A DNA stretch of 55,438 bases from Deltaproteobacteria bacterium. Its GTDB lineage: Bacteria > Desulfobacterota > Binatia > HRBIN30 > JACQVA1. A program made the position numbers and the translations under genes. Where the stretch lies: the NCBI GenBank assembly GCA_016210005.1, contig JACQVA010000216.1:1-55438 (forward strand). Direction: 5' to 3'. The notes under the pieces were generated by a model, which ran no database searches, was not told where the DNA came from, and saw only the letters and a program-made list of their open reading frames with translations. Below are positions 15,576 to 40,178 of the stretch, one piece after another. Position 1 is the first letter of the stretch. The number at the start of each line of letters is the position of its first letter.

Positions 15576-18500
15576 ATGATGGGGGGAACAGGGGCGGAGC
15601 AGACCACCGGCAATCGGCAAGCGCAGGCTTTGTCCCGGGTGCCAGGGCGAGTCTGGTCGGCTGGCTGCGATCAGAGCACAGCACGGCGTGCCGCCAAACA
15701 AGCGCTCGTGATGGTCGCGGTCGCTCTCTCAGCGATACTGCTCGCGCCGCCACCCACGCTGGCTCAGCCGCTGCTCTGCGACGCCGAACCTCCAGCCGGC
15801 GTGCCGCGCCCACTCTGGCTGGAGCTGGCGCCGCCCGCCGGCTCGGGTTACCCGGATTATCAGACCGTCTCCAACAACCTCCAGCTCATCCGCTCGATCA
15901 AGCTGCTGGCCTCCGTCGCCACCCGCGCGGCGCAGTCGCTGCAAGACCTCACAAGCGAGGTTGAAGACCCCGAGGCCGAAGGCCGCTGCGTCTGCTGCGT
16001 CAGCACCGGCTGCATCGTCCCCGAGTTCTACCTGAACCTGAAACGCAAGGACTGCACTGCGGCTCAGTGCACCGCCCTCGAAGGCCCCGACTACCCGATC
16101 TGGTTGCCGACCGACCTGTTCAAGAACAGCACCAACACCGCGCGCTTCGCTCTCAAGCAGATCGATTTCCTCGACAAACTGAAAGACGAGCTGAGCCAGA
16201 TCGCGCAGGCTTTGCAAGCCCTCGGTTCCGACCTCGACAACCTGGCGGACCTAGTCCAGCAGTATCTCGACTACGTCGATCTACTCACCGAAGGTTACCA
16301 CCTCGGCGGCTACTCCAGCGAGCGCCCGAATCTCCACCTCTGTGTCGGCTACGGTGGCCACGGCGCCTTTGCGGAGATGGCGAATCTGTTTGGCGAAGTC
16401 AGCATCGGCAGCCGCTACACCTCGCACAATCTCAGCGCGGAGCACCGCGCGCAGTTCCGCTCGGGCGGCTTCGCGGTCACGGCCTTCGGGCGCGCACTCA
16501 GCGTTCTGCCGGGTCTCGAGGCCAACGTGCAGATGGACGGCTTCAAGCTGTGGGATGCCGCCAGGCCCTTCGGGGTCGACCTGGGCGTGGCGGGCGATGT
16601 GACCTGCGCCAGCGGCCCGGGTTTCCGCATCGCCGATGTCGATCAGTACGACCTCTTCCACCTGATCGATCCGTCTACCGACCTCACCCCGTTCGACACC
16701 TCCGCCGACGGCTGCCTCCAGCCCGGCGAGTTCCTGATCAGAGACTTCTACGAGGCCACCTATCTATCGGCCGCTGCCGGCAGCTCGCACACCTGGCCAC
16801 GCGCCGCCTTCCCCCATGACTGGGAGAAGCAGAACACAGCGCTGTTCTCGGCCGGTCTCAACCTGCCAATCGAAATGAAACCGATCGAAAAGCTCATCCC
16901 AGCGACGGGCATCGTGCTCTTCCCCGGCGCCACCCTGTATCCGAAGCTGACGCTGAAGGCGGGCGCGGCGTGGGAGCACAAGGCCTACGGCCTGCGGGAG
17001 CGGTTGCAGGATGCCGTCAACGAGAACCTGCCGCCGTCCGCCCAGCTCGGCCCCGACGACTTCGAGCGGCCGATGCATGCGCTGCAAGCCCCCGACGTGT
17101 CGGAAGACAACGGCGCCTCCGCCTACGTCAAGCCGCGAATCGCGGCGGACTTGGTGCTGGGCATCGCCCTCAGTCGCTACTTGACGCTCGGTATCACCGC
17201 CAGTGTTGGCACCAGCGTTCGCGTCGAACCGGCCGCACACGGCGGCTTGCACGACCTCAACGTGTCGCTCGCAACGGCGTTGCTCAACAGCAACCCGCCG
17301 CCGGACTTGCCGTGCGATCCGATCATCGAAGACGCCCAGACTACGAGCTGCTCGAACGAGCTGTTTCACAAGCCCGACCCCCGAGACCCCTCCCAGTTGA
17401 TCGACATCTCCACGGGCAACTACAGCTGCGCCACCACTCAGGTGGTGGTGTTCCACTGTAAGGAACCGGAGGATGGCCGCAGCTGTACGCCGGCCAAAGC
17501 CAGCGTCGACTGTCCCCTAACCGGGGAATGCGTCGCGGAGTATGGCTGCGCCGCCCATGGGTACTGCACGCGCATACTCGAGGCCGGACCGGATCGGCTC
17601 GAAGGGACCGCGGACGACGTGCTCGATGTGCAGCACGACACGACTTACGCGGCATGCATCGGCAGCGCGGTCTGCGACGAGGCGGCGGTGAACGCCGGCA
17701 GCGACTGCGATGAGGATGCGGACTGCGTCGGCCCGACGCAATGTCTCGGGGGCGACAACGCCGGCAAGCCGTGCAAGACCGACCGCGATTGCCCGCGCGG
17801 CGAGTGCAAACCGTCCACCGCGCCCTGCGTCGTGATCTCGCCGGTGGGCTACTTCACGCCGTACCAATGCCTCGTTCATAGCAATCCGGAAATAGCCGGC
17901 TGGCAGGGCCCTGGTTGCCATCCGCTCACGGTCGGTTTCCCCTCGGCCTGCGGTTGCCAGAGCGACGACGATTGCGTGGCGGGCGTCGAGACCTGCGTCG
18001 ATGGAGCGTGCTCGACCAACAGCCAACCCGTGACCTGCACCTGCGATCCGGGAAATCCCACCTGTGGCAGCGGGCGCCTCTGCCGCGACGGCGGCTGTGT
18101 CCTCGATTGCTCCGTCAACGGCGCCGCCGACTGTGCCGCGTACCAGACCTGCACCAACGGCACCTGCGCGAATAGCTACGGCATCCCGTTCGCGGAGCAG
18201 ATCGTCTGGCAGATCACCAACACGCCCAAGCCGCAGCACGCGGTGACCAGCTACGCGCTGTCGGATGTCTTGACCAGTGCCATCCTCGATGCCGGTCTCT
18301 GGATCGGCCTCGATCTGAAGCTGTTCAAGAAGCTCTACCACTTCCCGATCCTCGACATCAGCGACTACTGGACGCTGCTGGCTTTCAACAAGAGCTGGTA
18401 CCAAGCCGGCCTCGAAGCGCGCTATCAGAACGATTGCGATCCGGTCAGCGGCAGCACGGTATCGAACTGGCAACCGGGGACGTTGCGCGTCAAGCGTTAC

Positions 18501-19586
18501 AACCCGGGCAACGCGACGAGCGGCAGTTATGGCAACGCCGGCACGCTGGCCGACCTGCAGCAGTGGTGTCTCAACGAGCTGCCCAACGAAGTGGCCGATC
18601 CCGCCGGGCCGACCACAGGCGACATCAGCAGCTCGGCCACTGATCTGCTCACTTGGGGTGAGAACATCGGCATGGAGGTCTGGGCGCTGGGTGGCCTGTG
18701 TGTGACGAACCCTGGGGCGGGGGGCGTCGCGTCGCAGCCTTTTACGCAGTGGCTGAACAGTCTCAACGCCAACCCAGCGGGCTTGCAGTGCCTGTACTCC
18801 TACAACATGCTCCGCTACTTGTTCCCTTGCAGCGATCTGCAGAACGAGCTGCTGCTCGTCTGGGGCTGTCTCGATGTCACGGCTAACCCGTGGGGGCCAC
18901 AGCTGGCGTCGGCCTTCCCCAACACGGTGGTTCCGGCCAGTACGCCGTTCTTCAACGTCCCGGCGATGCTGAGCGATCCGGCCGCCGAGTTCACGCTCGA
19001 CAACCTGCAGCCGGCGATTCGCAGCCACGGCCTTTTCGCCGGCCACTTCTGGTATCAATCAGTCACGCAGTGTTTCGAGCAGAACTACGCGACGATGGGC
19101 CCCGGCGACATCCACCTGCTCGGGGTCGACGTCGGACCCTGTTGCGGCAACCGCGTGCGCGACGTTGGCGGCTGCGAACGCGGCCCGGGCGTGCCGCCGT
19201 GCGAGCAGTGCGATGACGGCAACACCACGGCCGGCGACGGCTGCTCGCCGCTGTGTCGCAGCGAGGGGCGGCCGCGCCCGCTCGGCACCTGCGGCAACGG
19301 CATCGTCGACCGCCAGGATCTGGAAACCTGCGATGACGGCAATCAAATTCCTGCCGACGGCTGTGAACCCGACTGCACGCGGACGCCGGTGTCATGCGTG
19401 GGCGACTGCGACGGCAGCAGCGAGGTAACCGTGGACGAGCTCGTCACCGGTGTTAACATCGCGCTCGGGTCGCTGCCGCTGTCGGCCTGCCGCTCGTTTG
19501 ACACCGACACTGACGGAGCGGTCACGGTCGACGAATTGGTGCGCGCGGTGAACGATGCGCTGGCCGGTTGCGTTGCCAGTCGTTAG
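15576..19586 (+). CDS. Giant secreted Cys-rich protein with DUF4215-type repeats and dockerin-like C-terminus
   Basis: A 1336-residue exported protein. A signal peptide ends around LLAPPPTLAQ. The N-terminal half is unrecognised: a helical stretch with Leu/Asp/Gln repeats (KDELSQIAQALQAL), then beta-rich segments. The middle (about residues 630-870) is Cys-rich with repeats of the form GGDNAGKPCKTDRDCPRGEC. Near the C-terminus are two Myxococcus-type Cys-rich repeats (CDDGNTTAGDGCSPLC and CDDGNQIPADGCEPDC). The end is a paired EF-hand module: DCDGSSEVTVDELVTGVN and DTDTDGAVTVDELVRAVN. Start at ATG 15576 after AAGGGAGGGCACG. Likely calcium-binding and surface-located; function unknown. The C-terminal module is shared with the protein at 20578. 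Confidence 0.75.
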   Translation: MMGGTGAEQTTGNRQAQALSRVPGRVWSAGCDQSTARRAAKQALVMVAVALSAILLAPPPTLAQPLLCDAEPPAGVPRPLWLELAPPAGSGYPDYQTVSNNLQLIRSIKLLASVATRAAQSLQDLTSEVEDPEAEGRCVCCVSTGCIVPEFYLNLKRKDCTAAQCTALEGPDYPIWLPTDLFKNSTNTARFALKQIDFLDKLKDELSQIAQALQALGSDLDNLADLVQQYLDYVDLLTEGYHLGGYSSERPNLHLCVGYGGHGAFAEMANLFGEVSIGSRYTSHNLSAEHRAQFRSGGFAVTAFGRALSVLPGLEANVQMDGFKLWDAARPFGVDLGVAGDVTCASGPGFRIADVDQYDLFHLIDPSTDLTPFDTSADGCLQPGEFLIRDFYEATYLSAAAGSSHTWPRAAFPHDWEKQNTALFSAGLNLPIEMKPIEKLIPATGIVLFPGATLYPKLTLKAGAAWEHKAYGLRERLQDAVNENLPPSAQLGPDDFERPMHALQAPDVSEDNGASAYVKPRIAADLVLGIALSRYLTLGITASVGTSVRVEPAAHGGLHDLNVSLATALLNSNPPPDLPCDPIIEDAQTTSCSNELFHKPDPRDPSQLIDISTGNYSCATTQVVVFHCKEPEDGRSCTPAKASVDCPLTGECVAEYGCAAHGYCTRILEAGPDRLEGTADDVLDVQHDTTYAACIGSAVCDEAAVNAGSDCDEDADCVGPTQCLGGDNAGKPCKTDRDCPRGECKPSTAPCVVISPVGYFTPYQCLVHSNPEIAGWQGPGCHPLTVGFPSACGCQSDDDCVAGVETCVDGACSTNSQPVTCTCDPGNPTCGSGRLCRDGGCVLDCSVNGAADCAAYQTCTNGTCANSYGIPFAEQIVWQITNTPKPQHAVTSYALSDVLTSAILDAGLWIGLDLKLFKKLYHFPILDISDYWTLLAFNKSWYQAGLEARYQNDCDPVSGSTVSNWQPGTLRVKRYNPGNATSGSYGNAGTLADLQQWCLNELPNEVADPAGPTTGDISSSATDLLTWGENIGMEVWALGGLCVTNPGAGGVASQPFTQWLNSLNANPAGLQCLYSYNMLRYLFPCSDLQNELLLVWGCLDVTANPWGPQLASAFPNTVVPASTPFFNVPAMLSDPAAEFTLDNLQPAIRSHGLFAGHFWYQSVTQCFEQNYATMGPGDIHLLGVDVGPCCGNRVRDVGGCERGPGVPPCEQCDDGNTTAGDGCSPLCRSEGRPRPLGTCGNGIVDRQDLETCDDGNQIPADGCEPDCTRTPVSCVGDCDGSSEVTVDELVTGVNIALGSLPLSACRSFDTDTDGAVTVDELVRAVNDALAGCVASR

Positions 19587-20577: not shown

Positions 20578-21369
20578 TCATGGGCAGCCGGCGAGTGCCG
20601 CATTCACGGCCGCAACCAACTCCTCAATGGTGACCTCGCCATCGATGGTGGTATCAAATGCCGGGCACGCCGCGAGTGCAAGATTGCCGAGCGCGATATT
20701 CACTCCCGTCACCAGTTCATCGACCGTGACCTCCGCACCGCCATCGCAGTCACCGGCGCACAGGCCCGGTGTCGCGCTCGTCGGCGTGGCGGTCGCCGTT
20801 GGCGTTGGAGTCGGGGTGGCAAGCGCGGCGTTGAGAATGGTGATGCTGGCGAAGGCGGCGCGATCACCTTGGGTGCCGCCGGTACCGTCGACCGCGTTGC
20901 CCCAGACGTTGACGCTCGCGCCGGAAAAAACCTCCGGTGCGGTCCACAAGAAAGTGAAGGTGGTAACACCATCAGCCATAGCCTTCGGCAGCCGGTGCGT
21001 GATCTCTGCGCGGCCGCCGGTGCCGGGCAGCGCACGCGTGCCCTCGGCGGCGCTCCCGCCGGTGGCGAGTGTGCCCAGCTCGGACGAGGCATTAAAGCCC
21101 GCCTTGTTCTGCGCGCCAACGGCGAAAACGCGCACCGTGTACTCCCCGGTGGACGCCGGCATGAGCGCCGCCGGTCCCGACAGCTCCACCGTTGGCACCG
21201 TGCCACCGCTGTGGCACTGGTCGCAGCCGGTCGGCCCAAAAGCGAGTGTCGTAACGCCTTCCTGGCGAGCGTGGGCTTCGGGCAGCCACATGAACGCGAA
21301 GACCGTCACTAACAGCAAGGCGCAACACCAGGTCTGCGCCAAGCGATCTTTGCACGCGTTTTGGTACAA
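20578..21369 (-). CDS. Secreted reelin-like protein with CxxCH motif and dockerin-like C-terminus
   Basis: A 263-residue exported protein. After a signal peptide (hydrophobic WCCALLLVTVFAFMWLPEAHA) comes GPTGCDQCHSGG, a single c-type haem motif. Next is a beta-sandwich resembling the choice-of-anchor V / reeler-like group (about residues 50-175, VSGPAALM-type start to NAALATPT). A Pro-Thr linker (ATPTPTPTATATPTSATPG) leads to an EF-hand pair: DCDGGAEVTVDELVTGVN and a second, degenerate loop DTTIDGEVTIEEL lacking one Asp. This tail is homologous to that of the protein ending at 19586. A TTG start at 21369 was chosen because AAAGGAGG sits five bases upstream; ATG 21393 is the alternative. Function unknown; periplasmic or surface. 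Confidence 0.7.
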   Translation of the reverse strand: MYQNACKDRLAQTWCCALLLVTVFAFMWLPEAHARQEGVTTLAFGPTGCDQCHSGGTVPTVELSGPAALMPASTGEYTVRVFAVGAQNKAGFNASSELGTLATGGSAAEGTRALPGTGGRAEITHRLPKAMADGVTTFTFLWTAPEVFSGASVNVWGNAVDGTGGTQGDRAAFASITILNAALATPTPTPTATATPTSATPGLCAGDCDGGAEVTVDELVTGVNIALGNLALAACPAFDTTIDGEVTIEELVAAVNAALAGCP

Positions 21370-21466
21370 GGTGCCTCCTTTGCGTGGCGCCACTCTTGCG
21401 GCGTGGGCACAGCTGAGTCAACTGGGGCGATGCCCGCCACCACTGTGGTGTGGTAATGAACGGTGC

Positions 21467-25793: not shown

Positions 25794-26903
25794 CTATTGC
25801 AGCCCGCGCACCTCGTCCGGGCCCAAGAGTCGATTGTAAGCGGTAAACCGACTGATTGTGCCACGTGCACCCGGTTGCCCGCCGGGATGATCGGAGCCGA
25901 TGTAGAGCGGACCGGATGGGGGCACGAAGTTGCCGTTGTACGGACTTTGCCCGACCAGCCGGCCATCGATGTAGAGTCGGGTCAGTCTTTGGCCGGTTTC
26001 CGGGTCCTCGCCCCAGGTCGTCGCAATGTTGTGGGTTTCGCCCGGCTGCCAATTGATGGGCACACCAACGCCGCTCTCCATCCCGGTGTCGTCGGTGAAC
26101 AGAAAGCGCATCCACTGGCCGTTCTTGGTGACCTGGATGCGGTTGTTCCATTCATTGGGTGTGCGCAGCTGCACGAAGGACGCATCGGTATTGTCATTGC
26201 CCGGCCATTCGCCCTGAATCGTGAACGCGAAAGTGCCGGCTTCGCCGGTGATCCCGCCGGCATTCGGAACCGCGAACTGGGCATCGGTGGAGAACTTGGC
26301 CCCGTCTTCACTCTCAAAGCTGACACCTTCCGCTACCACCGGGGCATCGCCCTTATCCGGCTCGGTGGTTCCTTGGAGCGACAACGACAACACCGGCCCG
26401 TTGGGGTCCTCTTCCTTACCCTCTTCGGCCGCGTCTTGAGGTAGCGGCTGGCCGCGCACAACGCTCTCGCCCGGCCTATCGCCGCCGAGGCCGCCTGGCC
26501 TTTCGAAACGGACCCCGGGCTCGCGCGGCCGCGCGATCTGAATCGCTCCTTCCTCGGACGCCGTGCTGCCGCTGGCGCCCAAGGCATCACCAGCGCGGCG
26601 GCCGCCGGTGATAACCGTGGCAGCGCCACCGCCCGACTCCGCGGCGCCGGGGCCACTGCCTCGCTCACCCTGGGCTCCGCCGCGCGCCGCTACTGCGCCG
26701 CTGGTTTGGCCCGCCTCCCCGGTGTTCTGACGCGTGCTCCAGCCGCCCGCTCGCTCTGCGAGCGCGCCGCCGGCCGGAACCGCGATCGGCACCCGCGCCC
26801 GGCCCGGTTCATCACCTCCGCCAGTTCGAAAATGGCGCGCCGCGATCGCGAGGGTGATCACGACGCACACGCCAACAATGATGCCTACCCAGGTCTTGGT
26901 CAT
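25794..26903 (-). CDS. Membrane-anchored LamG/concanavalin-like domain protein
   Basis: A 369-residue protein. An N-terminal hydrophobic segment (KTWVGIIVGVCVVITLAIAA) anchors it; residues about 25-170 are low-complexity Gly/Ala/Glu/Arg-rich linker. The C-terminal domain (about 175-369) is a LamG jelly roll, visible in FSTDAQFAVP, EGTFAFT-type strands, WPGNDNTDASFVQLRT, THNIATTWGEDPETGQRLTRLYIDGRLV and RGTISRFTAYNRLLGPDEVRGL. Such domains bind sugars or other ligands outside the membrane. ATG 26903 was preferred over TTG 26915. It converges on the groEL terminator and is divergent from luxE; nothing links it functionally to either. Confidence 0.7.
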   Translation of the reverse strand: MTKTWVGIIVGVCVVITLAIAARHFRTGGGDEPGRARVPIAVPAGGALAERAGGWSTRQNTGEAGQTSGAVAARGGAQGERGSGPGAAESGGGAATVITGGRRAGDALGASGSTASEEGAIQIARPREPGVRFERPGGLGGDRPGESVVRGQPLPQDAAEEGKEEDPNGPVLSLSLQGTTEPDKGDAPVVAEGVSFESEDGAKFSTDAQFAVPNAGGITGEAGTFAFTIQGEWPGNDNTDASFVQLRTPNEWNNRIQVTKNGQWMRFLFTDDTGMESGVGVPINWQPGETHNIATTWGEDPETGQRLTRLYIDGRLVGQSPYNGNFVPPSGPLYIGSDHPGGQPGARGTISRFTAYNRLLGPDEVRGLQ

Positions 26904-27026
26904 CGTCCGTCTCAACGGTCCGCACGATCGTGATATGCCCGAGCACGGGAGTCAACACCCGGCCACTACCTGGGCAACCTGGCCACGAGCCCTTGGCCGC
27001 CCCGGCCGGCGTGCTATCGTCCCGGC

Positions 27027-28109
27027 GTGCACGCGGTTCACGATGCCGTCCTCCGTTTCATCTCTGGGCAGGAGGGCAATTTTGAGACCTTGGCGCTGGC
27101 CGTCTTCCGCCACCAATTCGAGGGCATCGCCCCATACCGGCGCTACTGCGAACAGCGCGGCACCGGCATCGCGGCGGTTCGCTCATGGCGCGAGATCCCG
27201 CCGGTGCCGGTGCTGGCGTTCAAGGAGACGGAGCTCGCCTGCGCCGCGCCGCAGCGTGTGTTTCTAACCACCGGAACCAGCCGCGGCCACCAGCGCCGCG
27301 GGCGGCACGCCCTGCCGGACGTGCGCCTATACCACGCCTCGGCCGTCGGCGGACTGCGCCGCTTCTTGTGGCCCGATCTCGAGCGGGTGCCGATCGTCTC
27401 ATTGATCGCGCCACCTGCGGCGATGCCGGATTCGTCGCTGTCACAAATGGTGGCGTGGGCGATGGAGGAGTACCCGGCCGACGGCAGCATTTACGCCGCC
27501 TCAGCGGCCGGGATTGACTACACCGCCTGCGCTGCTGCCTTACGTGCGGCTGAGCGCAGCGGCAACCCGATCTGCCTGCTGGCCACCACCGCCGCGTTGA
27601 TTTACTTGCTTGACCACTGCGCCGTCGGCGGAGTCAGCTTTCGCCTGCCCCACGGCTCGCGTCTGATGGACACCGGCGGCCACAAGGGGGCACCGCGGCC
27701 GCTGTCGCGCCGCGGCCTGCTGCGGGCGTGCTGGAACACCTTCGCCATCCCCGGCTATTTCTGCGTCAACGAATACGGCATGGCGGAGTTGTCGTCCCAG
27801 TTCTATGAAAACGTCATCAGCAATCGTTGGCGCGGGCATTTCGCGCCGCGGTATTTGGTGGCACCGCCGTGGGCGCGCGTGCGGCTGCTCGATCCGGCCA
27901 CGCTGGATGATGTGCCGGCGGGTGAACGTGGCCTGGTTTGCGTCTACGACCTCGCCAATGCCGGTACCGCGCTGGCCGTGCTGACGGAAGACATTGGCCG
28001 CCAGGCCGGCGACGGCTTTGTGATCGTGGGTCGAGCCACCGGCGCCGCAACCCGCGGCTGCTCCCTTAGCGCCGCCGAGTGGGACGCAGCGGCGGAGTCC
28101 CGGCAATGA
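27027..28109 (+). CDS. LuxE-like acyl-protein synthetase (AMP-forming)
   Basis: A 360-residue member of the LuxE acyl-protein synthetase family. It activates a fatty acid with ATP and hands the acyl group to an enzyme-bound thiol for reduction by LuxC. Family pattern: REIPPVPVLAFKETELACAAP near the N-terminus, a threonine/serine-rich turn (FLTTGTSRG), and an adenylate-forming-like core (VNEYGMAELSSQFYEN, GLVCVYDLANAGTALAVLTEDIG). The C-terminal RGCS (Cys345) is where LuxE proteins carry their acyl-acceptor cysteine. It starts with GTG 27027. Its stop overlaps the luxC-like ATG by four bases (ATGA), so the two are translationally coupled. No luciferase (luxAB) gene is near, so the role is fatty-aldehyde production, not light. 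Confidence 0.85.
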   Translation: MHAVHDAVLRFISGQEGNFETLALAVFRHQFEGIAPYRRYCEQRGTGIAAVRSWREIPPVPVLAFKETELACAAPQRVFLTTGTSRGHQRRGRHALPDVRLYHASAVGGLRRFLWPDLERVPIVSLIAPPAAMPDSSLSQMVAWAMEEYPADGSIYAASAAGIDYTACAAALRAAERSGNPICLLATTAALIYLLDHCAVGGVSFRLPHGSRLMDTGGHKGAPRPLSRRGLLRACWNTFAIPGYFCVNEYGMAELSSQFYENVISNRWRGHFAPRYLVAPPWARVRLLDPATLDDVPAGERGLVCVYDLANAGTALAVLTEDIGRQAGDGFVIVGRATGAATRGCSLSAAEWDAAAESRQ

Positions 28110-29419
28110 ATCCCACGCACACCACGACAGAAGCGGCAGCGCCCAGCCCGATCGCCTCTGCGGCGACCGTGAGGCAAGTGGCCGAACGGCTGAGAGCCAC
28201 CGGCCTGCGATGCCTGGCACCACGGCCGATTGCGGATATCTTACGGGTGTTGGCCGAGACCGTCGAAGCGTGGTTGCACCCGGACTCCCCTTGGCGGCGG
28301 CGGGCGGAAGCGGCGCTGCCCGCAGCCACCGGTTTTTCGGCGCCGATGATTCGCCATGGCTTGAGGCTGTTGCTCGAACCTCTGCGCGGCGACGCTATCG
28401 GCCGACTGCTCGACACCGAACTCGCAGAGCGGACGGTGCTAGATCGTATCAGCGGCCCGCCGCTCATGCTGCACATCGTGTCCGGCAATATCCCAGCCCT
28501 GGCGGCGGTGCCGATCGCGCTCTCGCTGGCGGTCAAGTCGGCGGCTTTGGTGAAGGAAAGCCGCGGAGATCGCGTGTTTCCGCCGCTGTTCATCGAATCG
28601 CTGCGTGCGATCGACGGTGAGCTGGGCAGTTGTGCGGCGTCGTTGTACTGGATGGGCGGCCGTGTCGATGTCGAAGTCGCGGCCTTTGCCGCGGCCGACC
28701 TGGTGGTGGCGGCGGGCGATGACGCAACCATTGCCGACATCACCCGGCGAGTCCCTGGTAGGTTCATCGGGCATGGGCACCGCATCAGCTTTGCGGTAAT
28801 CGCCCGGGAAGCGCGGCAAGAGGCTGAAGCGATCGCGGCTCGCCTGGCCTATGATGTCGCCGTGTGGGACCAACAGGGCTGTCTCTCGCCACAGCTCGTC
28901 TACGTCGAGCGTGGCGGTGCACTCGGGGTGGAGCGCTTTGCTGCGGAACTCTGCCGGCAGCTGGAGCTTGCCGCGATCGAGCTGCCGCCGCGGCAACTGA
29001 GCGTTGAGGATGCTGCAGGCGTGCTGCGCTTTCGCCAGGAGGCCGAGTGGCGCGCCGTGCGTGGCGAAGAAGTGCTGGTGCTCGTGTCACCGGGTGGGAC
29101 GGGCGGGACCGTCGTCTACGACGCCAAGCCGGCCTTTGTGCCCACACCGCTGAACCGAACCGTCTGGGTCAAACCGGTGGATACGCTTGCCGAGCTGCCG
29201 CCGCTGCTGGCACCCGCGCGGCCGTACCTCGAGGCGGCGGGCCTGGCGGCGCCGCCGGCGCGCCAGGCCGATCTCAGCGCCTTGCTGACACGGGCGGGTG
29301 TTCATCGCCTCTGCCCGCTCGGTGAGATGCAGCGGCCCGACCTCACCTGGCGCCCCGGCGGCCGGCCGCGCGTGGCGCAGTGGGTCGGCGCGCCGTTTTC
29401 CGGCATCGGGCAGGCGTGA
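28106..29419 (+). CDS. LuxC-like acyl-CoA/acyl-protein reductase
   Basis: A 437-residue LuxC-family reductase, an aldehyde-dehydrogenase-like enzyme that reduces acyl thioesters to aldehydes with NADPH. The NADP-binding stretch PPLMLHIVSGNIPALAAVPIAL-type start lies at about residues 118-138, and VKESRGDRVFPPLF follows. The catalytic Cys is C259 in WDQQGCLSPQLVYVE. The ATG at 28106 overlaps the luxE-like stop (ATGA). The ATG of the aminotransferase comes seven bases after the stop. Together with LuxE it would make a fatty aldehyde. The N-terminus is Ala/Thr-rich and variable. Confidence 0.87.
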   Translation: MNPTHTTTEAAAPSPIASAATVRQVAERLRATGLRCLAPRPIADILRVLAETVEAWLHPDSPWRRRAEAALPAATGFSAPMIRHGLRLLLEPLRGDAIGRLLDTELAERTVLDRISGPPLMLHIVSGNIPALAAVPIALSLAVKSAALVKESRGDRVFPPLFIESLRAIDGELGSCAASLYWMGGRVDVEVAAFAAADLVVAAGDDATIADITRRVPGRFIGHGHRISFAVIAREARQEAEAIAARLAYDVAVWDQQGCLSPQLVYVERGGALGVERFAAELCRQLELAAIELPPRQLSVEDAAGVLRFRQEAEWRAVRGEEVLVLVSPGGTGGTVVYDAKPAFVPTPLNRTVWVKPVDTLAELPPLLAPARPYLEAAGLAAPPARQADLSALLTRAGVHRLCPLGEMQRPDLTWRPGGRPRVAQWVGAPFSGIGQA

Positions 29420-29426
29420 GGGTGCA

Positions 29427-30650
29427 ATGGCCGATGACCTAACGACCGGTGAGGAGTTGCGCGCGGCTTTCTTGCGCCACGTTTGCCAGACCTCGCCCGA
29501 GCCCCTCGCTATCACTGTCAACCGCGCCGCGGCGGCCACCGTCTGGGACACGCGCGGGCGTGCTTACCTCGATCTGCTCTCCGGCATCGGCGTCGCCAAC
29601 GTCGGCCACGCCCATCCCGAAGTCGTCCGCGCCGTGCAGGAGCAGGCTGCGCGCTACTTGCACGTCATGGTATACGGCGAGGCCATCATCGCACCGCAGG
29701 TGGCACTGGCCCAGCGCCTGGCCGAAGTCACGCCAGGTGATCTAGAGGTTACGTACTTCACCAACAGCGGCACCGAAGCGGTGGAAGGCGCGCTCAAGAC
29801 GGCGCGCAAGTTCACCGGACGCGCGAACTTGGCGGCCTTCGACGGCAGCTTTCACGGCGACACCTTCGGATCGCTGTCCGTCGGCGGCAATCCGATTTAC
29901 CGGCAACCATTCGAGCCGCTGCTGCCGGGCGTTCGTTTGCTCCCCTTCGACGACCTCGAAGGCTTGCGCCGCATCGACGAATCGGTGGCCGCGGTGATCG
30001 TCGAGCCGATTCAAGGTGAGGGCGGGGTGCGCGTGCCGCAGGAGGCTTTCTTGCCTGCATTGCGGCACCGCTGCACCGAGGTCGGGGCGCTGCTGATTTT
30101 TGACGAAGTGATCACCGGCTTTGGGCGCACGGGGGCGCTGTTTGCCTGTACCCACTGGGGAGTGACGCCCGATCTGCTGGTGCTAGCCAAAGCGCTCGGC
30201 GGGGGCATGCCGCTGGGGGCATTCATCGGAAGGCGCGAAGTCATGGCCACGCTGTCACACGATCCGCCGCTGGCGCATGTCACCACTTTCGGCGGCCACC
30301 CGCTGTCGTGCGCTGCCGGGCTCGCCGCGCTCTCCGTGCTGCTGCGCGAACAACTACCGGCGCGCGCCGCTGATCTCGGCGAATACTGGCGCGCGCGCCT
30401 CGCCGCTCACGCGGGTGGCGTGCTGCGCGCCGTGCGCGGCAGGGGGCTGTTGCTGGGCCTCGAATTCCGCAACGCCGGCGCCACCCAGCGCTTCGCCCGT
30501 GCCTGTTTCCACCGCGGCCTGATCGTGAACTGGACGCTGCACCGCGACAGCGTGATTCGGCTGGCACCGCCGTTGATCATCACCGAGGAGGAATGCGAGC
30601 GAGCACTGAGCCTACTGGAGGAGGCGCTCGGGGAAACCGCAACCAGTTGA
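29427..30650 (+). CDS. Class III pyridoxal-phosphate aminotransferase
   Basis: A 407-residue PLP enzyme of the acetylornithine/ornithine/omega-amino transaminase group. Signatures are YLDLLSGIGVANVGHAHPEVV, TYFTNSGTEAVEGALKTARKFTG, FDGSFHGDTFGSLSVGGN, LLIFDEVITGFGRTG, and the PLP Lys255 in LVLAKALGGGMPLGAF. Class III enzymes can aminate aldehydes at a terminal carbon, so the product of LuxE/LuxC is a plausible substrate; that link is inference from the operon. ATG 29427 was chosen, seven bases after the LuxC stop; a longer open frame upstream overlaps luxC. Full-length and intact. Confidence 0.88.
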   Translation: MADDLTTGEELRAAFLRHVCQTSPEPLAITVNRAAAATVWDTRGRAYLDLLSGIGVANVGHAHPEVVRAVQEQAARYLHVMVYGEAIIAPQVALAQRLAEVTPGDLEVTYFTNSGTEAVEGALKTARKFTGRANLAAFDGSFHGDTFGSLSVGGNPIYRQPFEPLLPGVRLLPFDDLEGLRRIDESVAAVIVEPIQGEGGVRVPQEAFLPALRHRCTEVGALLIFDEVITGFGRTGALFACTHWGVTPDLLVLAKALGGGMPLGAFIGRREVMATLSHDPPLAHVTTFGGHPLSCAAGLAALSVLLREQLPARAADLGEYWRARLAAHAGGVLRAVRGRGLLLGLEFRNAGATQRFARACFHRGLIVNWTLHRDSVIRLAPPLIITEEECERALSLLEEALGETATS

Positions 30651-30670: not shown

Positions 30671-31474
30671 CTACGGCTTGATGATCATCCCGGCCAGCCG
30701 GCGCACCAGACTGCGGGGGGCGGCGTTGGCGGCGGCGGCCAGCACCTGATTGCCTAGGCCGGGGATGCAAATCAGGCTGCCGCGCTGCAACGCCGCCAAT
30801 GAGGCTGCCACCACCGCATCCGGCGTCATCCACACGAACGATGGGACATGCGAGGTGTCGATGCCGGCGCGCTCTTGGAACTCCGTGCGGGTGAAGCCCG
30901 GGCACAGCGCCTGCACTTGCACCCCGGTGCCGCGTAGTTCCTCGTGCAGCGCTTCGGTGAAGCTGTTCACAAATGCCTTGGTCGCAGCGTAAGTCGCGTT
31001 GAAGGGGGTCGGCTGCAACGCGGCCAGCGATGAGACGTTGATAATGGCGCCACGGTGCCGTGCCACCATGCCGGGTAACGCCGCCCGAGTCAGCCGGGTC
31101 AACGCCAGCACATTGAGTTTCACCTCGGCCTCCTCGCGGTCGGGATCGAGGCGTACGAACGGCCCGACGGTGCCAAAGCCGGCGTTGTTGACCAGCAGCT
31201 CGAGCTGCTGGTCGCCGGCGATGACCTGCTCCACGACACGCAGCTCGCTGCTGTCGGTGAGGTCTGCCGAGAGCGGCTCAGCCGCGATCCCGTGGCGCTG
31301 GCGCAGCCCCTGGGCGAGCGCCGCGAGGCGCTCGGCGTTGCGCGCCACCAAAATCAAGTCGTAGTGTTCGCGCGCCAGCCGCTCGGCAAAGGCCAGCCCG
31401 ATGCCAGCTGACGCGCCCGTCACCAGCGCCCGGCGGGCGCCGGACGGTCTTGCCACTGCTCGTTTCGCCACCAT
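30671..31474 (-). CDS. Short-chain dehydrogenase/reductase
   Basis: A 267-residue SDR, Rossmann fold with the cofactor motif TGASAGIG (about residues 19-26), NNAG (about 96-99) and the catalytic Ser-Tyr-Lys in INVSSLAAL...YAATKAF. The TGASAGIG...ARNAERL pattern fits the group often annotated as DltE-like or 3-oxoacyl reductase-like. It would oxidise or reduce an alcohol/ketone with NAD(P)H. It converges on the aminotransferase gene, 20 bp from its stop, so it is not in that operon but may act on the same lipid. Divergent from the DHH phosphoesterase gene. Confidence 0.88.
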   Translation of the reverse strand: MVAKRAVARPSGARRALVTGASAGIGLAFAERLAREHYDLILVARNAERLAALAQGLRQRHGIAAEPLSADLTDSSELRVVEQVIAGDQQLELLVNNAGFGTVGPFVRLDPDREEAEVKLNVLALTRLTRAALPGMVARHRGAIINVSSLAALQPTPFNATYAATKAFVNSFTEALHEELRGTGVQVQALCPGFTRTEFQERAGIDTSHVPSFVWMTPDAVVAASLAALQRGSLICIPGLGNQVLAAAANAAPRSLVRRLAGMIIKP

Positions 31475-33792: not shown

Positions 33793-34959
33793 TCAAGCGA
33801 CCGCTTGGGCAGCAGCTACGGCCTTTCGCGCCGCATCGGCCATATCGTTGGCCGCGATGATGTTGAGGCCGGACTCGGCCAGGATGCGCTTGCCGATGTC
33901 GACGTTGGTGCCTTCCAAGCGCACCACTAGTGGCACGGACAGATGCACCTGCCGAGCAGCTTCTACCACACCACTTGCGAGTACATCGCAGCGCATGATG
34001 CCGCCGAAGATGTTGATCAGCACCGCGCGCACGTTCTGGTCGGAGAGCAGGATCTTGAACGCCTCGGCTACCTTCTCGGTGGTCGCGCCGCCGCCAACGT
34101 CAAGGAAGTTGGCCGGCGCGCCGCCTGAGTGCTTGATGATGTCCATGGTCGCCATTGCCAGACCGGCACCGTTGACCATGCAGCCGATGTTGCCGTCGAG
34201 CGAGATGTAGCTGAGGTCGTGCTCGGCCGCGCGGGTCTCTTTGGGATCTTCCTCGTTGAGATCGCGTAGCTCGCGGATAGCGGCGTGGCGATAGAGCGCG
34301 TTGTCATCGAAGCCCATCTTGGCGTCGAGCGCGATCACCTCGCCGGCCTTGGTGATGACCAGAGGGTTGATCTCGGCCATCGAGGCATCGCAGTCGATGA
34401 AGGCGCGATAGAGCCCGTTCATGAAGGCGACCGCCTTGTTCACCGATGGTCCCTCGAGTTTGAGGCCGAAAGCGAGCTTGCGCGCTTGAAACGGCTGCAA
34501 GCCGACGGCGGGGTCGATGGACTCGCGCAGGATCTTCTCGGGCGAGCGGGCGGCCACCTCCTCGATCTCGACGCCGCCCTCGGCGCTGGCCATCATGGCG
34601 GGCCGGCCAGTGGCGCGGTCGATGACCATGCCCAGGTACAGCTCCCGGGCGATCTCGCTGCCCTGCTCCACTAGCACGCGGCGCACGACGCGGCCGGCCG
34701 GTCCCGTCTGGTGGGTCACCAGGGTGCTGCCGATCAGCTTGCTGGCGAAGTCGTGGACCTCCGGCGGCGTCCGGCACAGCTTGACGCCGCCGGCTTTGCC
34801 GCGGCCACCGGCATGGATCTGTGCCTTGACGACGCAGACGCCGCCGAACTCACGCGCGATCGCCGCCGCCTCTTCGCCGCTGGCTGCTGGCTTCCCGTTT
34901 GGGACCGCTACGCCGTATTTTCGCAGAATGTCTTTCGCCTGAAACTCGTGAATGTTCAT
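33793..34959 (-). CDS. sucC: Succinyl-CoA synthetase, beta subunit
   Basis: SucC, 388 residues, the ADP/GDP-forming half of succinyl-CoA synthetase. The start [21 protein letters not shown] and the glycine-rich [17 protein letters not shown] are canonical, as are [42 protein letters not shown] and [19 protein letters not shown]. It works only with SucD, which binds the CoA side; sucD is not downstream here. It is the last gene of the mdh-sdhC-sdhA-sdhB-sucC run. The 86-bp gap after sdhB is larger than the other gaps but contains only a GC hairpin. Confidence 0.97.
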
Positions 34960-35045
34960 ACCAATCCTTGCCCGCCGTCGGCGCGATTAAGTGCTCGCCC
35001 CGGCGGGAGGCTCGGGGCGGGGTAAGTAGCTCGCACGACCGGCGT

Positions 35046-35795
35046 CTAGCGCCAGAGCAGGTCCTTAATCGACTTGATCGTCACCTGGCGCCCCAGTTCC
35101 CCGATCGCGGTAGTGAGCGGAATTTCCTTCGGGCACACCTGGACGCAGTTCTGCGCGTTGCCGCAGTCGCTGACACCGCCCTCGCCCATCGCCGCCGCCA
35201 GCCGATCGTCCTTGTTCATTGCTCCGGTCGGGTGGAGGTTGAAGAGCACCACCTGCGCCATGGCGGCCGGGCCCATGAACTGCGAGCGCTCGTTCACTTG
35301 CGGGCAGGCTTCTAGGCAGCAACCGCAGGTCATGCAGCGCGACAGCAGGTAGGCAAACTCCTGCTGGGCCGAGGAGATCCGCGGCCCGGGGCCGAGATCG
35401 TAGGTGCCATCAATCGGGATCCATGCTTGCACCCGTTTGAGCGCCTCGAACATCCGGCTGCGATCGACCATCAGGTCGCGCACGACCTGAAACTTGGTCA
35501 TCGGCTCGACCCGGATGGGTTGTTCGAGCTGATCGACCAGGGCGGTGCAGCCCTGGCGCACGCGGCCGTTGATGACCATGGTGCAAGCGCCGCACACCTC
35601 TTCGAGGCAGCTCGACTCCCACACCACCGGCGTGGTCGGCTTGCCGTCGCGGGTGACCGGGTTGCGGCGAATCTCCATCAGCACCGACAGCACGTTGTGC
35701 TGCGGCTTGTAGGGGACTTCGAATTCCTGCCAGTAGGGCGCGGCGTCGGCTGCGTCCTGCCGCTTGACTCGTAAAACGATTGCGCGCGTTTCCAT
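35046..35795 (-). CDS. sdhB: Succinate dehydrogenase iron-sulfur subunit
   Basis: SdhB, 249 residues. The 2Fe-2S cysteines are in SSCLEEVCGACTMVINGRVRQGC. The 4Fe-4S ligands are in CMTCGCCLEACP, and the 3Fe-4S set is CGNAQNCVQVCPKEIP. It passes electrons from SdhA to the membrane subunit. It starts seven bases after the sdhA stop, so the two are co-translated. Like SdhA and SdhC it is of the Bacillus-type (type B) complex, as the short SdhC and lack of SdhD confirm. Confidence 0.95.
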   Translation of the reverse strand: METRAIVLRVKRQDAADAAPYWQEFEVPYKPQHNVLSVLMEIRRNPVTRDGKPTTPVVWESSCLEEVCGACTMVINGRVRQGCTALVDQLEQPIRVEPMTKFQVVRDLMVDRSRMFEALKRVQAWIPIDGTYDLGPGPRISSAQQEFAYLLSRCMTCGCCLEACPQVNERSQFMGPAAMAQVVLFNLHPTGAMNKDDRLAAAMGEGGVSDCGNAQNCVQVCPKEIPLTTAIGELGRQVTIKSIKDLLWR

Positions 35796-35802
35796 CCACC
35801 CC

Positions 35803-37548
35803 TCACGCGGCTTGCTTGTCGACGTCGTACTTGCGCGCGCGCGGCTTGATCAGCGACGTGTCGACCGGATCGTAGCTGAACTGCGGGCCATCGGAGCTCC
35901 ACCGCGCCATCGTGGTCTTCAAGAAGTTAACGTCATCGCGTTCGGGAAACGCCGGTTTGTAGTGCGCGCCGCGGGATTCGTCGCGCCGCAGGGCGCCGAG
36001 GGTGATCACCCGCGCCAGCTCGAGCATGCCCCACATCTGCTTGACGAAGGAAATCTCCTGGTTGGCCCACTTGCCCTTGTCGTTGAGCCCGATGCGACCC
36101 CAGCGGTCTTTGAGCTCGAGCAGCTTGTTGTCGGTCTCGCGCAGCTTGGCGTTGTCGCGAATGACTGTAACGTTGGCCGTCATCCACTCGCCGAGCTCCT
36201 TGGCGATGCTGTAAACGTTTTCTTTGCCGTTCATGCCGGCGAGCTTGGCAAAAGCTTCCTCTTGCCGTTTCTTCTCCAGATCGAGCGTGCGCTCGGCGCC
36301 GTCGCCGGAGTGAGCGTGGGCGTAGCGCACCATCGCCGGGCCGGCGACCTGGCCGCTGAACAGGCAAGAGAGCAGCGAGTTGGCGCCGAGGCGGTTGGCG
36401 CCATGGTACTGATAGTCGCACTCGCCGGCGGCAAACAGGCCCGGGATCTTGGTCATGTGGTCGTAGTCGACCCACAGTCCGCCCATCGAGTAGTGCATGC
36501 CGGGGAAGATCTTCATCGGCACTTTGCGCGGGTCATCGCCGACGAACTTCTCGTAGATTTCCAGCACGCCGCCAAGCTTGCGGTCGAGGGTGCGGGCGTC
36601 GATATGGGTGACGTCGAGGAAGACCTGCGGCTCGCCGTCGACGCCGAGGCCCATTTCGAACACGACCTTGAAGATAGCGCGGGTAGCGATATCGCGCGGC
36701 ACCAGGTTGCCGTAGGCCGGGTACATGTCTTCGAGGAAGTACCACGGCTTGCCGTCGCGGTAGGTCCACACCCGGCCGCCTTCGCCGCGCACCGACTCGG
36801 AGATCAACCGCAGCTTGTCATTGCCCGGGATCGCCGTCGGGTGGACCTGGATGAACTCGCCGTTGGCATAGGTAGCGCCCTGCTGGTAGGCAACAGCCAC
36901 CGCTGCGCCGGTGTTCACCATCGAGTTCGTGCTCTTACCGAAGATGATGCCGGGCCCGCCGGTAGCCAGCATCACGGCCGCAGCTGGGAACGCCTGCACC
37001 GCCATGGTGCGCTGATTCATGGCGATGATCCCGCGGCAGCGCCCGCTCTCGTCGAGCACCGCGGAGAGGAACTCCCAGGTTTCGAACTTGCGGACCAAGC
37101 CCGCCACCTCGTGGCGGCGCACCTGCTCATCGAGCGCATAGAGCAGCTGCTGCCCGGTGGTGGCGCCGGCAAAGGCGGTGCGGTTGTACTTGGTGCCGCC
37201 GAAGCGCCGGAAATCGAGAAAGCCCTCCGGCGTGCGATTGAAAGTCACGCCCATGCGATCGAGCAAGAAGACGATGCCGGGCCCGGCCTCGCACATGGCC
37301 TTGACCGGCGGTTGGTTGGCGAGGAAGTCGCCGCCGTAAATCGAATCGTCGAAGTGTTCCCAAGGCGTGTCGCCCTCGCCCTTCCAGTTCACCGCGGCGT
37401 TGATGCCGCCCTGCGCGCAAACCGAATGCGAGCGTTTGACCGGCACCACCGAAAAGAGGTCGACCGGCACGCCCAGCTCCGCGATCTTGACCGTAGTCAT
37501 CAACCCCGCCAAGCCGCCACCGACGACGATGAGACGTTCATCCGCCAT
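35803..37548 (-). CDS. sdhA: Succinate dehydrogenase flavoprotein subunit
   Basis: SdhA, 581 residues. FAD motif IVVGGGLAGLMTTVKIAELG is at residues about 7-26. The FAD-linking His is in RSHSVCAQGGINAA. Active-site regions include HPTAIPGNDKLRLISESVRGEGGRVW, and the C-terminal third ends DTSLIKPRARKYDVDKQAA. It oxidises succinate to fumarate at the cytoplasmic face. ATG 37548 was chosen because the longer frame upstream runs through sdhC. It lies 32 bp after sdhC and seven bases before sdhB. Confidence 0.96.
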   Translation of the reverse strand: MADERLIVVGGGLAGLMTTVKIAELGVPVDLFSVVPVKRSHSVCAQGGINAAVNWKGEGDTPWEHFDDSIYGGDFLANQPPVKAMCEAGPGIVFLLDRMGVTFNRTPEGFLDFRRFGGTKYNRTAFAGATTGQQLLYALDEQVRRHEVAGLVRKFETWEFLSAVLDESGRCRGIIAMNQRTMAVQAFPAAAVMLATGGPGIIFGKSTNSMVNTGAAVAVAYQQGATYANGEFIQVHPTAIPGNDKLRLISESVRGEGGRVWTYRDGKPWYFLEDMYPAYGNLVPRDIATRAIFKVVFEMGLGVDGEPQVFLDVTHIDARTLDRKLGGVLEIYEKFVGDDPRKVPMKIFPGMHYSMGGLWVDYDHMTKIPGLFAAGECDYQYHGANRLGANSLLSCLFSGQVAGPAMVRYAHAHSGDGAERTLDLEKKRQEEAFAKLAGMNGKENVYSIAKELGEWMTANVTVIRDNAKLRETDNKLLELKDRWGRIGLNDKGKWANQEISFVKQMWGMLELARVITLGALRRDESRGAHYKPAFPERDDVNFLKTTMARWSSDGPQFSYDPVDTSLIKPRARKYDVDKQAA

Positions 37549-37580
37549 AGCTTCAATCCTTTGCCCGCCGCCGTACGCGA

Positions 37581-38210
37581 TCAGCGGAATGCCGCCACGA
37601 TCATCAGGCTCGATGCGCCCAGGGCCACGAACGCCAGCGTACACGCCGCCTGCACCGCCCGCTGCGCCCGCACGCCGACGGTGATGCCCCAGGTGATGCA
37701 GAAGGTCGAGATGCCGTTGGTCAAATGGAAGACGCAGGACAACACCCCCACCAGATACACGGCGAACACCAGCGGGTTGCTGACCCAGTCGTGCATCGTG
37801 GCGTAATTGATCGGGACGCCGAAGAAGTAGTTGTAGAAGCGGGTGGTGTACATGTGAAACACCAGGAACAACAGCGCGATCACGCCGGTCACCCGCTGCA
37901 TGGTGTAGAACACGTTGCGCGCGTACGGGTAGTCGCTGAAGTTGGGCTGAGCTTCCACCACAATGAAAGCACCATAGATGCCGTGGAAAGCGATCGGGAT
38001 CCACAAGACGAAGATCTCGATCAGCAGCAACAGGAACCACGGAGCTGACTCCAGCGACTCGGCCACCGCATCGAAGCGCTGCGGCCCGGCCAACACCGCC
38101 GCGTTGGCCAGGAACACATGGAACAGCATATAGAAGCCGATCGGCAGCAAACCCGACAGGCTGTGTAAACGTCGCAAGAGGAAATGTCTTCGATCCCGAT
38201 CCATCGCCAT
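37581..38210 (-). CDS. sdhC: Succinate dehydrogenase cytochrome b558 (membrane anchor) subunit
   Basis: SdhC of type B, 209 residues with five hydrophobic segments. The start MAMDRDRRHFLLRRLHSLSGLLPIGFYMLFHVF is typical of Bacillus/deltaproteobacterial cytochrome b558. His ligands for two haems are visible in LHSLSG, FHVFLAN, FHGIYGAF, FHMYTTR and FHLTNGI. A single anchor protein of this type needs no SdhD, and none is present. ATG 38210 was chosen (MAMD); ATG 38204 is the next in-frame choice, and the longer frame upstream is not family-like. First of the sdhCAB run, 133 bp after mdh. Confidence 0.92.
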   Translation of the reverse strand: MAMDRDRRHFLLRRLHSLSGLLPIGFYMLFHVFLANAAVLAGPQRFDAVAESLESAPWFLLLLIEIFVLWIPIAFHGIYGAFIVVEAQPNFSDYPYARNVFYTMQRVTGVIALLFLVFHMYTTRFYNYFFGVPINYATMHDWVSNPLVFAVYLVGVLSCVFHLTNGISTFCITWGITVGVRAQRAVQAACTLAFVALGASSLMIVAAFR

Positions 38211-38343
38211 CAGGGTCCCTTCTCGGCACTCCTTAGTGAGCCCCCTCGCAAACTTCAAGAACAGCGCAATGAAATCTCGTTGCCAAGAGCAGAAGAGTGC
38301 CTGCTCGAAATCCGGCGGCGGCAACCACTCTTCGGCCTGGCCG

Positions 38344-39423
<1,080 letters not shown>

Positions 39424-39511
39424 TCAGTAGCACAGTGCTAATGCACCCCAGCCGCATGGCGCAAAGATCGCGTGTGGTACTGGGCCCAACCCTTGACGGC
39501 ACCAAGGGTAG

Positions 39512-39595
39512 CAAGCCACCGGCGCCAACGTCGGCTACGAAGCCGAGTTGTGGCAGATGGCCGACGCGCTGCGCGGCAGCATGGACGCCGCGGAG
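39512..39595 (+). pseudogene. hsdM: hsdM remnant (type I restriction methyltransferase, N-terminus only)
   Basis: After a TAG at 39509, this frame reads [20 protein letters not shown], then RGSMDAAE (28 codons). This is the highly conserved start of HsdM, which continues YKHVVLGLIFLKYIS in intact genes. Here the match stops dead at 39595 and the next bases encode the four-helix-bundle protein in another frame. The rest of hsdM and all of hsdS are missing. The frame just upstream (GTKGSKP) may be the earlier part of the same gene, shifted by one base. Confidence 0.7.
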
Positions 39596-39596
39596 T

Positions 39597-40178
39597 GTGG
39601 CGCAGCTGGTCTACGACGTCACGGTGCGGTTCTGCGATCGCTACATCTCGCTGCGCAGCCGCACCCACGATCAGATGGTGCAGGCGGCGCGCTCCGGCGT
39701 GCAGAACATCGCCGAGGGCAGCCAGGCCAGCGGCACCTCGAAGAAAATGGAGCTGAAGCTGACCAACGTGGCGCGTGCCAGCCTGGAAGAGCTGCGCCTC
39801 GACTACGAGGATTTCCTCCGGCAACACGGCCACCCGATCTGGCCGCGCGATGACCCGCGCCGCGCGGAGCTGATCCGGAGGCGGCCCGCCACCGCGGATG
39901 CGGTGGCGGAGTGGGCGAGAGAACTACATGGACTACGTGGACGGCATGGACAAAGTGGACAGGCCCGAGATCCGCTTGGGTCCACTGGGTCCATTTCGTC
40001 CACAGCGTCCACCCCGAGCTACCCAGAACTCGCCGCCAACGCGGCGCTCGTCCTCATCGCGGTGGCGTGCGGCCTGCTCGATCGGCAGCTCGCAGCGCAG
40101 GCCACCGCGTTCGAGAAAGAAGGCGGCTTCACCGAGCGCCTTTACAACCGGCGCCACAGCACACGGAGAGGTGCATGA
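39597..40178 (+). CDS. Four-helix-bundle protein of type I restriction loci, N-terminally truncated
   Basis: A 193-residue four-helix-bundle suffix-domain protein (S23/IVP-like). The core [27 protein letters not shown], then [19 protein letters not shown] and [20 protein letters not shown], is textbook; the C-terminus [17 protein letters not shown] matches the family end. Such genes sit between hsdS and hsdR. The expected N-terminal 10-15 residues are missing, and the first in-frame start is GTG 39597, right at the junction with the hsdM remnant. The stop overlaps the hsdR remnant start (ATGA at 40175-40178). It may still be made but has lost its partners. The middle is enriched in a Gly/Ser linker. 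Confidence 0.6.

Follow-up and report, generated by a model that had tools for sequence, protein, structure and literature searches.

Activation, reduction and transamination by a class III aminotransferase follow one another in arginine biosynthesis (ArgB-ArgC-ArgD) and in lysine biosynthesis (LysZ-LysY-LysJ). To our knowledge, few natural routes to bacterial fatty amines have been characterised, and the clearest of them is that of tambjamine. As described in the accessible portion of the work on tambjamine YP1 from Pseudoalteromonas tunicata, TamA and TamH turn fatty acids into amines with L-Glu, and the aldehydes handled range from C7 to C14 with a preference for C12 (PMC9594044). In prodigiosin biosynthesis, to judge from the available part of the published account, PigE couples the reduction of a thioester to an aldehyde with transamination (PMC8341465). 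Flagellin glycosylation islands, in the excerpts of two studies used here, hold LuxE and LuxC together with acyl carrier protein (ACP), FabG and an AMP-dependent synthetase, and in Aeromonas the class III aminotransferase belongs to islands of group I, LuxE/LuxC to those of group II (PMC7874193, PMC4875605). The present analysis concerns three adjacent genes of a Deltaproteobacteria bacterium of the class Binatia (assembly GCA_016210005.1), which encode a LuxE-like acyl-protein synthetase, a LuxC-like acyl reductase and a class III aminotransferase. They lie on a single contig (JACQVA010000216.1; C216) of the 5.9 Mb genome, and this whole stretch of 55,438 nucleotides is referred to below as the window.

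Judged from sequence, the trio probably constitutes one small pathway leading from a carboxylic acid, the likeliest candidate being a fatty acid of medium or long chain length, to the matching primary amine. LuxE would spend ATP to convert the acid to an acyl-adenylate and then bind it in thioester linkage to its C-terminal cysteine; from there the acyl group would pass to the catalytic cysteine of LuxC, where reduction with NAD(P)H would give the aldehyde; and the aminotransferase would take this aldehyde from LuxC and aminate it with glutamate as the donor. We infer here the direction of the reaction, the fatty acyl substrate, the glutamate donor and the free amine product. That the acid would be fatty is suggested by the closest solved pair, a long-chain acyl reductase complex, by conserved leucines at two aminotransferase positions that line the hydrophobic entrance of PatA, and by membership of the LuxE and LuxC families.

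Such a pathway is known chemistry built from different parts. With TamA/TamH, within the limits of the published text used, it would share adenylation, thioester reduction to an aldehyde and class III transamination with L-Glu; TamA, however, is an ANL-ACP di-domain protein where the trio has a LuxE-type enzyme for activation, and TamH carries an acyl-ACP-reductase type domain behind its transaminase, whereas in the trio LuxC stands in front of the aminotransferase. Nor were pyrrole genes seen at the trio, or an ACP gene among the neighbours scanned. PigE, as far as its source describes it, resembles the proposed pathway in uniting aldehyde-forming reduction and transamination in one protein, but serves a specific prodigiosin precursor. 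Its reductase also differs from LuxC. Relative to the arginine and lysine pathways, the kinase and the acyl-phosphate reductase are replaced by LuxE and LuxC. The LuxC-LuxE reductase of luminous bacteria (7xc6) has in common with the trio the same two adjacent families, both over their Pfam cut-offs, and both relay cysteines, yet the trio falls far below the NCBIfam cut-offs, no LuxD or luciferase was seen in the proteins scanned, and the aldehyde that goes to luciferase in the luminous system would go to the aminotransferase here. The flagellin islands, in the parts of their descriptions consulted, resemble the trio in having LuxE and LuxC outside bioluminescence.

The assignment of the three proteins to their families is clear in Pfam, where LuxE reaches 53.7 bits for PF04443 (cut-off 24.9), LuxC 209.8 bits for PF05893 (cut-off 21) and the aminotransferase 364.8 bits for PF00202, Aminotran_3 (cut-off 30.5). 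None of them reaches an NCBIfam cut-off (for the aminotransferase, among 25 of 69 families listed), so they are neither bioluminescence LuxE and LuxC proper nor the named ArgD or PatA; LuxE and LuxC score 49.8 and 46.1 bits against bioluminescence cut-offs of 550 and 750, and the aminotransferase 371.1 bits against 410.05 for TIGR00707 argD. The closest solved chain to LuxE is 7xc6_E, "LuxE" (E 9.5e-13), and the sole one for LuxC is 7xc6_A, "Long-chain acyl-protein thioester reductase" (E 1.1e-8), the solved matches of both proteins being confined to these two chain kinds of PDB entry 7xc6. The LuxE cysteine lines up with GCSLS of the former and the LuxC cysteine with DQQACFS of the latter. 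The first is present in 62 of 62 aligned LuxE proteins (one genome is counted twice, as L137 and L150, and the fragmentary matches L123 and L136 were dropped) and the second in 63 of 63 LuxC proteins (without the fragmentary match L202), C259 being invariant in an alignment of 15 rows. The roles given to both cysteines are those of the bioluminescence enzymes. Among titled records, the closest LuxC relatives come mostly from Candidatus Binatia or Binatota and from unplaced Deltaproteobacteria.

The preliminary description of the locus, made from the sequence alone, had noted an overlap of four bases between LuxE and LuxC and an aminotransferase start seven bases further on, which is exact by coordinates, and the order of the three genes proves to be kept across the class and in some other lineages. 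In a first phylum sample of 198 genomes (phylum samples here and below were evenly drawn and incomplete), a single contig carries LuxE, LuxC and the aminotransferase in each of the seven genomes of the class, the window's own included; the other six enzymes are 55-65% identical to the window aminotransferase, while the other phylum matches listed reach 38-48%. A survey of 148 class genomes (E<=1e-100 for the aminotransferase, E<=1e-10 for LuxC, E<=1e-4 for LuxE) found the aminotransferase in 101, LuxC in 103 and LuxE in 96, with the complete trio in 90 and none of the three in 42. Of the 99 genomes with both, 84 have the aminotransferase behind LuxC on the same strand, with less than 400 bp separating the two hits; ten further pairs share a strand at 0.5-14 kb and five lie on another contig or strand. 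LuxE stands ahead of LuxC within 700 bp in 81 of 94 cases, farther off in four and on another contig or strand in nine, and some of the weak LuxE matches that lie on other contigs (G336, G337) perhaps represent different adenylating enzymes. The trio is tight in 64 class genomes and present in 77 under looser spacing (LuxE-LuxC <=10 kb, LuxC-aminotransferase <=5 kb).

A contig scan with the LuxC alignment and two short peptide patterns, which was not exhaustive and drew partly on class-survey genomes, yielded 76 LuxC loci, and profile searches showed that in 49 of them LuxE-LuxC, or LuxC by itself, has a class III aminotransferase next to it on its own strand. The order is LuxE-LuxC-aminotransferase in 19 (L142-L148 with about 1.3-2.6 kb between LuxC and the aminotransferase), LuxC-aminotransferase in eight, with LuxE absent from the recovered stretch or on the other strand, and aminotransferase-LuxE-LuxC in 22, four of these with the aminotransferase cut or broken. 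In L196 the trio-type aminotransferase lies on the opposite strand, with a GabT-like enzyme upstream. Among 148 sampled Nitrospirota, LuxC occurs in three and a window-type aminotransferase in two, starting 21 and 30 bp after LuxC. In the sample of 140 Myxococcota, 68 genomes carry an aminotransferase resembling the one of L207 (E<=1e-95) and 110 carry LuxC (E<=1e-12). In those 68 genomes, LuxC follows the aminotransferase on the same strand in 43 (at 1.2-1.6 kb in 42 of them and at 3.4 kb in the last), lies on another contig or strand in 19 and gave no match in six; among the 26 best aminotransferase matches, 25 are linked to LuxC. The spacing of 1.2-1.6 kb leaves room for LuxE, which was not searched for in this sample but, in the named Myxococcota loci, stands between aminotransferase and LuxC. 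Retention side by side in distant lineages, and in two orders, is strong evidence that these proteins work jointly.

In one Binatia family, f86, the second and third proteins are physically joined. All 13 of its genomes with both parts carry LuxC and the aminotransferase in a single stop-free frame, with linkers of 21-78 amino acids, nine of which contain no Met and two of which (G290 and G291) are identical. Both parts are whole in ten of these frames; the other three are cut by a contig end, which leaves only the rear part of LuxC in G288 and G292 and shortens the aminotransferase in G297. Where LuxE is on the same stretch, it precedes the fusion as a gene of its own that overlaps it. The same script found no fusion in 13 other stretches (the window, L119-L124, L133, L134, L136, L137, L291 and L292, the last two of which contain no aminotransferase). 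The fusion of a reductase to an aminotransferase suggests that the aminotransferase acts on the aldehyde that the reductase makes, as in PigE and in TamH, where, according to the available description, reductase and transaminase are likewise fused. The preliminary description had proposed a route from a fatty acid through an aldehyde to an amine; linkage, tree and fusion together give good support to its reaction logic, a support that does not extend to the long-chain fatty acid.

The phylogeny of the aminotransferases, a quick IQ-TREE reconstruction with a mixture model, was based on a selection of loci giving 93 rows (89 distinct) and 393 columns, from which L179, L193, L206 and L212 were left out as cut or broken. 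Window-type enzymes form one clade of 40 rows (36 distinct) with a Shimodaira-Hasegawa-like approximate likelihood ratio (SH-aLRT) support of 100; before identical rows were merged it held 25 Binatia rows, 14 others and one Nitrospira copy that does not adjoin LuxC, and the enzyme of L145 (Candidatus Binatota) falls among the window-class rows. This clade stands apart from E. coli ArgD, AstC, GabT, PuuE, PatA and BioA, as well as from the ArgD-like copy of the same genome, L223. The latter belongs to 22 ArgD-like rows that group with E. coli ArgD and AstC (support 97), and E. coli PatA groups with five other rows (support 86) outside the trio clade. The preliminary description had named two outcomes that would count against it, a grouping with ordinary acetylornithine enzymes and a trio not conserved elsewhere; neither occurs. 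The 18 rows of the aminotransferase-LuxE-LuxC type form a separate clade (SH-aLRT 99), and the linked enzyme of L166 (Bacillota) stands apart on a long branch. Although the two linked types differ in clade and active site, two origins are not claimed, as an approximately unbiased test did not reject one common clade (p 0.343). The identity of the window enzyme as ArgD was ruled out by its own clade and by Asp145. As to L223 itself (G000:C85:10641-11831), the match contains one TGA, either the gene end or a sequencing error.

The active site sharpens this picture. The window enzyme carries the features of a class III omega-transaminase, namely the Aminotran_3 domain, the pyridoxal phosphate (PLP) lysine and the Glu-Arg pair. 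The PLP lysine, K255, is present in all rows of the compared groups, including 40 of 40 of the window type. All 22 ArgD-like rows, like E. coli ArgD, AstC, GabT and PuuE, have the substrate-carboxylate Arg at column 145, and PatA has Lys; the window type has Asp there in all 40 rows (36 distinct). E198 is kept in 40 of 40 and R378 in 38 of 40 rows, the exceptions L116 and L151 being one identical sequence; they align with Glu243 and Arg426 of PatA, used in the 2-oxoglutarate half-reaction, and L282 and L371, both Leu in 40 of 40, align with the PatA entrance residues Phe327 and Leu419, all in a mapping read by eye from the pairwise alignment with 4uox. With the carboxylate Arg lost and the Glu-Arg pair kept, window-type enzymes would be expected to accept glutamate, together with an aldehyde that bears no carboxylate at this position. 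The nearest solved relative is the putrescine aminotransferase 4uox (315.2 bits), followed by the acetylornithine/acetyl-lysine aminotransferase 1vef (293.5 bits), and the PigE chain 4ppm scores 234 bits. As far as its structural report is drawn on here, PatA (YgjG, 4uox) has the same retained Glu-Arg pair, replaced carboxylate Arg and hydrophobic entrance (PMC4244111); it differs in the residue at column 145 and in its tree position, and the trio enzyme lies in an acid-activating operon.

This kinship with a diamine enzyme feeds the first alternative, that the trio converts carboxyl to amine on a non-fatty acid, for instance an omega-amino acid, which would give a diamine, or an aromatic or polyketide-like acid; it would then be a counterpart of ArgB-ArgC-ArgD or LysZ-LysY-LysJ in which LuxE serves for activation and LuxC for reduction. 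An amino group with a positive charge could be met by Asp145, a residue that BioA shares at this column. We take this BioA residue to lie near the amino group of 7-keto-8-aminopelargonic acid (KAPA), although a literature search aimed at BioA found no paper. The use of LuxE and LuxC in flagellin glycosylation islands, on the evidence of the excerpts cited, shows the pair at work outside bioluminescence (PMC4875605, PMC7874193). Set against these points, the closest solved reductase is named for long-chain acyl groups and the entrance position pair is leucine throughout the window type, so that a non-fatty acid appears unlikely, if worth keeping in mind.

A second alternative reverses the pathway into a catabolic amine unit, in which the aminotransferase would deaminate an alkylamine to an aldehyde, LuxC would oxidise it and LuxE would handle the acid. 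PatA takes putrescine as an amino donor, according to the part of its report used (PMC4244111), and Binatota are predicted to use methylamine and, in the accessible sections of their genome study, to degrade alkanes and fatty acids (PMC8262859). The LuxE relay cysteine is nevertheless conserved in every aligned protein, and the scanned Binatia neighbour open reading frames (ORFs) held no recurrent transporter or regulator family, the only exception being a histidine kinase found in two genomes that belong to one family. Oxidation has no need of a cysteine-relay acyl-protein synthetase, which consumes ATP in activating an acid, and the reverse direction is accordingly improbable. That an ordinary acetylornithine aminotransferase stands by chance beside a LuxE-LuxC pair making aldehyde for some other use is hardly credible: the 38-48% identity to other class III matches listed in the phylum and the argD score, itself below cut-off, speak for it, but against it stand the separate clade (support 100), a second, ArgD-like gene at another place in the genome (L223), the loss of the carboxylate Arg in 40 of 40 rows and the single frame with LuxC in 13 genomes.

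To return to the proposed conversion of a fatty acid to an amine, several observations weigh against it. LuxE and LuxC are, by sequence, only distantly like the bioluminescence enzymes, which bears on the fatty substrate. Asp at column 145 recurs in E. coli BioA, whose substrate bears an amino group, and would fit an amino-bearing aldehyde too. Support in the tree, a quick reconstruction, is less safe on its long branches (E. coli BioA, L166). The Myxococcota-type enzymes have Leu or Val at position 145, Arg at 198, Ala or Ser at 282, Gly at 371 and Ser, Gln or Ala, never Arg, at 378 (18 of 18 in each case); as they differ from the window type at every substrate position compared, they need not share the reaction or the donor, and without the Glu-Arg pair they should use another donor and perhaps another substrate. 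No ACP, LuxD or lipid gene was found among 20 Binatia neighbour ORFs scanned. Finally, 26 of the 76 LuxC loci have no class III aminotransferase in the recovered stretch, some stretches being short, and LuxE-LuxC probably also works without one.

Table 1. Features of the window, with the trio first (positions in the 55,438-nucleotide stretch).
Feature	Position	Strand	Details
LuxE-like acyl-protein synthetase (acid activation)	27027..28109	+	GTG start, TGA stop; C-terminal RGCSL cysteine; Pfam PF04443
LuxC-like acyl reductase	28106..29419	+	ATG start, TGA stop; catalytic C259 in DQQGCLSPQ; Pfam PF05893
Class III (PLP) aminotransferase	29427..30650	+	ATG start, TGA stop; K255, D145, E198-R378; Pfam PF00202
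LuxE/LuxC overlap, 4 bases	28106..28109	+	read from the sequence
LuxC stop to aminotransferase ATG, 7-base gap	29420..29426	+	GGGTGCA; read from the sequence
LamG-like protein	25794-26915	-	in front of LuxE, opposite strand
Short-chain dehydrogenase	30671-31474	-	3' of the aminotransferase, opposite strand to the trio
ORF resembling DHH/DHHA1 proteins	starts 31605	+	below Pfam cut-offs; beyond the short-chain dehydrogenase
ORF with terminal repeats	15153-19586	+
ORF with terminal repeats	20578-21393	-
TCA-type gene block	33793-39408	-
23S rRNA-intervening-sequence-type protein	39435-40178	+	27 bits, Pfam cut-off 33.8

The overlap of LuxE and LuxC (Table 1) is likely to couple their translation, and, since the flanking genes lie on the opposite strand, the operon in the window comprises LuxE, LuxC and the aminotransferase only. 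Promoter-like sites number 0 against 0.4 expected and terminator-like sites 3 against 3.2 expected, and an Rfam scan of the window gave no match at gathering thresholds. The absence of luciferase genes, asserted in the preliminary description, holds for the 16 window proteins scanned with Pfam, the rest of the 55 kb not having been scanned for one. A Pfam survey of the 20 neighbour ORFs, from 11 Binatia genomes, left 11 without a family, some of which may not be real genes; the others matched histidine kinases, an AIRS protein, a JAB-domain protein, YkuD, an iron-sulphur protein, a short-chain dehydrogenase and zinc alcohol dehydrogenases. A larger biosynthetic cluster was considered and rejected, no partner being common to all among these ORFs. 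The closely related loci L142-L149 share further neighbours, partly scanned, and neighbours that recur at the Myxococcota-type loci are a SUF operon, HPPK and PAPS reductase; in L175, L177, L184 and similar loci, aminotransferase-LuxE-LuxC sits between the HPPK/PAPS reductase genes and the SUF iron-sulphur operon.

Other partners of the pair were also encountered. In L153, L157 and L180 (Methylomirabilota / NC10), LuxE-LuxC occurs without an aminotransferase in the recovered stretch and with a zinc alcohol dehydrogenase family gene upstream (scanned in L153), and this pair may feed alcohols; L150, L152 and L163 have a gene of this family behind the aminotransferase. In L160, L165, L167, L171, L188 and L197, a single gene family comes after LuxE-LuxC and gives the pair another kind of partner, U32-peptidase-like in the three members scanned (L160, L171, L188). 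Elsewhere in the window, the tricarboxylic acid (TCA)-type block encodes an ATP-grasp/CoA ligase of the succinyl-CoA synthetase beta type, iron-sulphur, flavoprotein and membrane subunits of succinate dehydrogenase, and a lactate/malate dehydrogenase. The two repeat-bearing ORFs have similar terminal repeats, CDG..VTVDELV.GVNIALG, which look like dockerin or EF-hand repeats; the shorter gave no Pfam match (E<=1e-5) and the longer lay outside the scan. The intervening-sequence-type protein is not accompanied by an RNA family match in the window.

The preliminary description knew of no established pathway with exactly this trio, and this stands: literature searches aimed at the trio, at LuxC with an aminotransferase and at natural fatty amines returned no paper describing it, in a coverage that mostly excludes subscription journals, and the main text of the Binatota genome paper contains no word beginning "lux" or "aminotransferase" (PMC8262859). 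It is possible, though we put it forward tentatively, that a widespread and undescribed pathway to free long-chain primary amines, or to an amine-bearing lipid made from these, operates in Binatota, in some Nitrospirota and, with a second and very different aminotransferase, in Myxococcota, and that the natural fusion of one Binatia family hands the aldehyde on directly. If so, a self-contained three-gene unit converting acids to amines, found in 90 of 148 Binatia genomes and in a related arrangement in many Myxococcota, would point to an overlooked class of amines. It would also provide a compact set of enzymes, the natural fusion included, for the synthesis of amines from acids, and would suggest one role for the LuxE-LuxC pairs of non-luminous bacteria.

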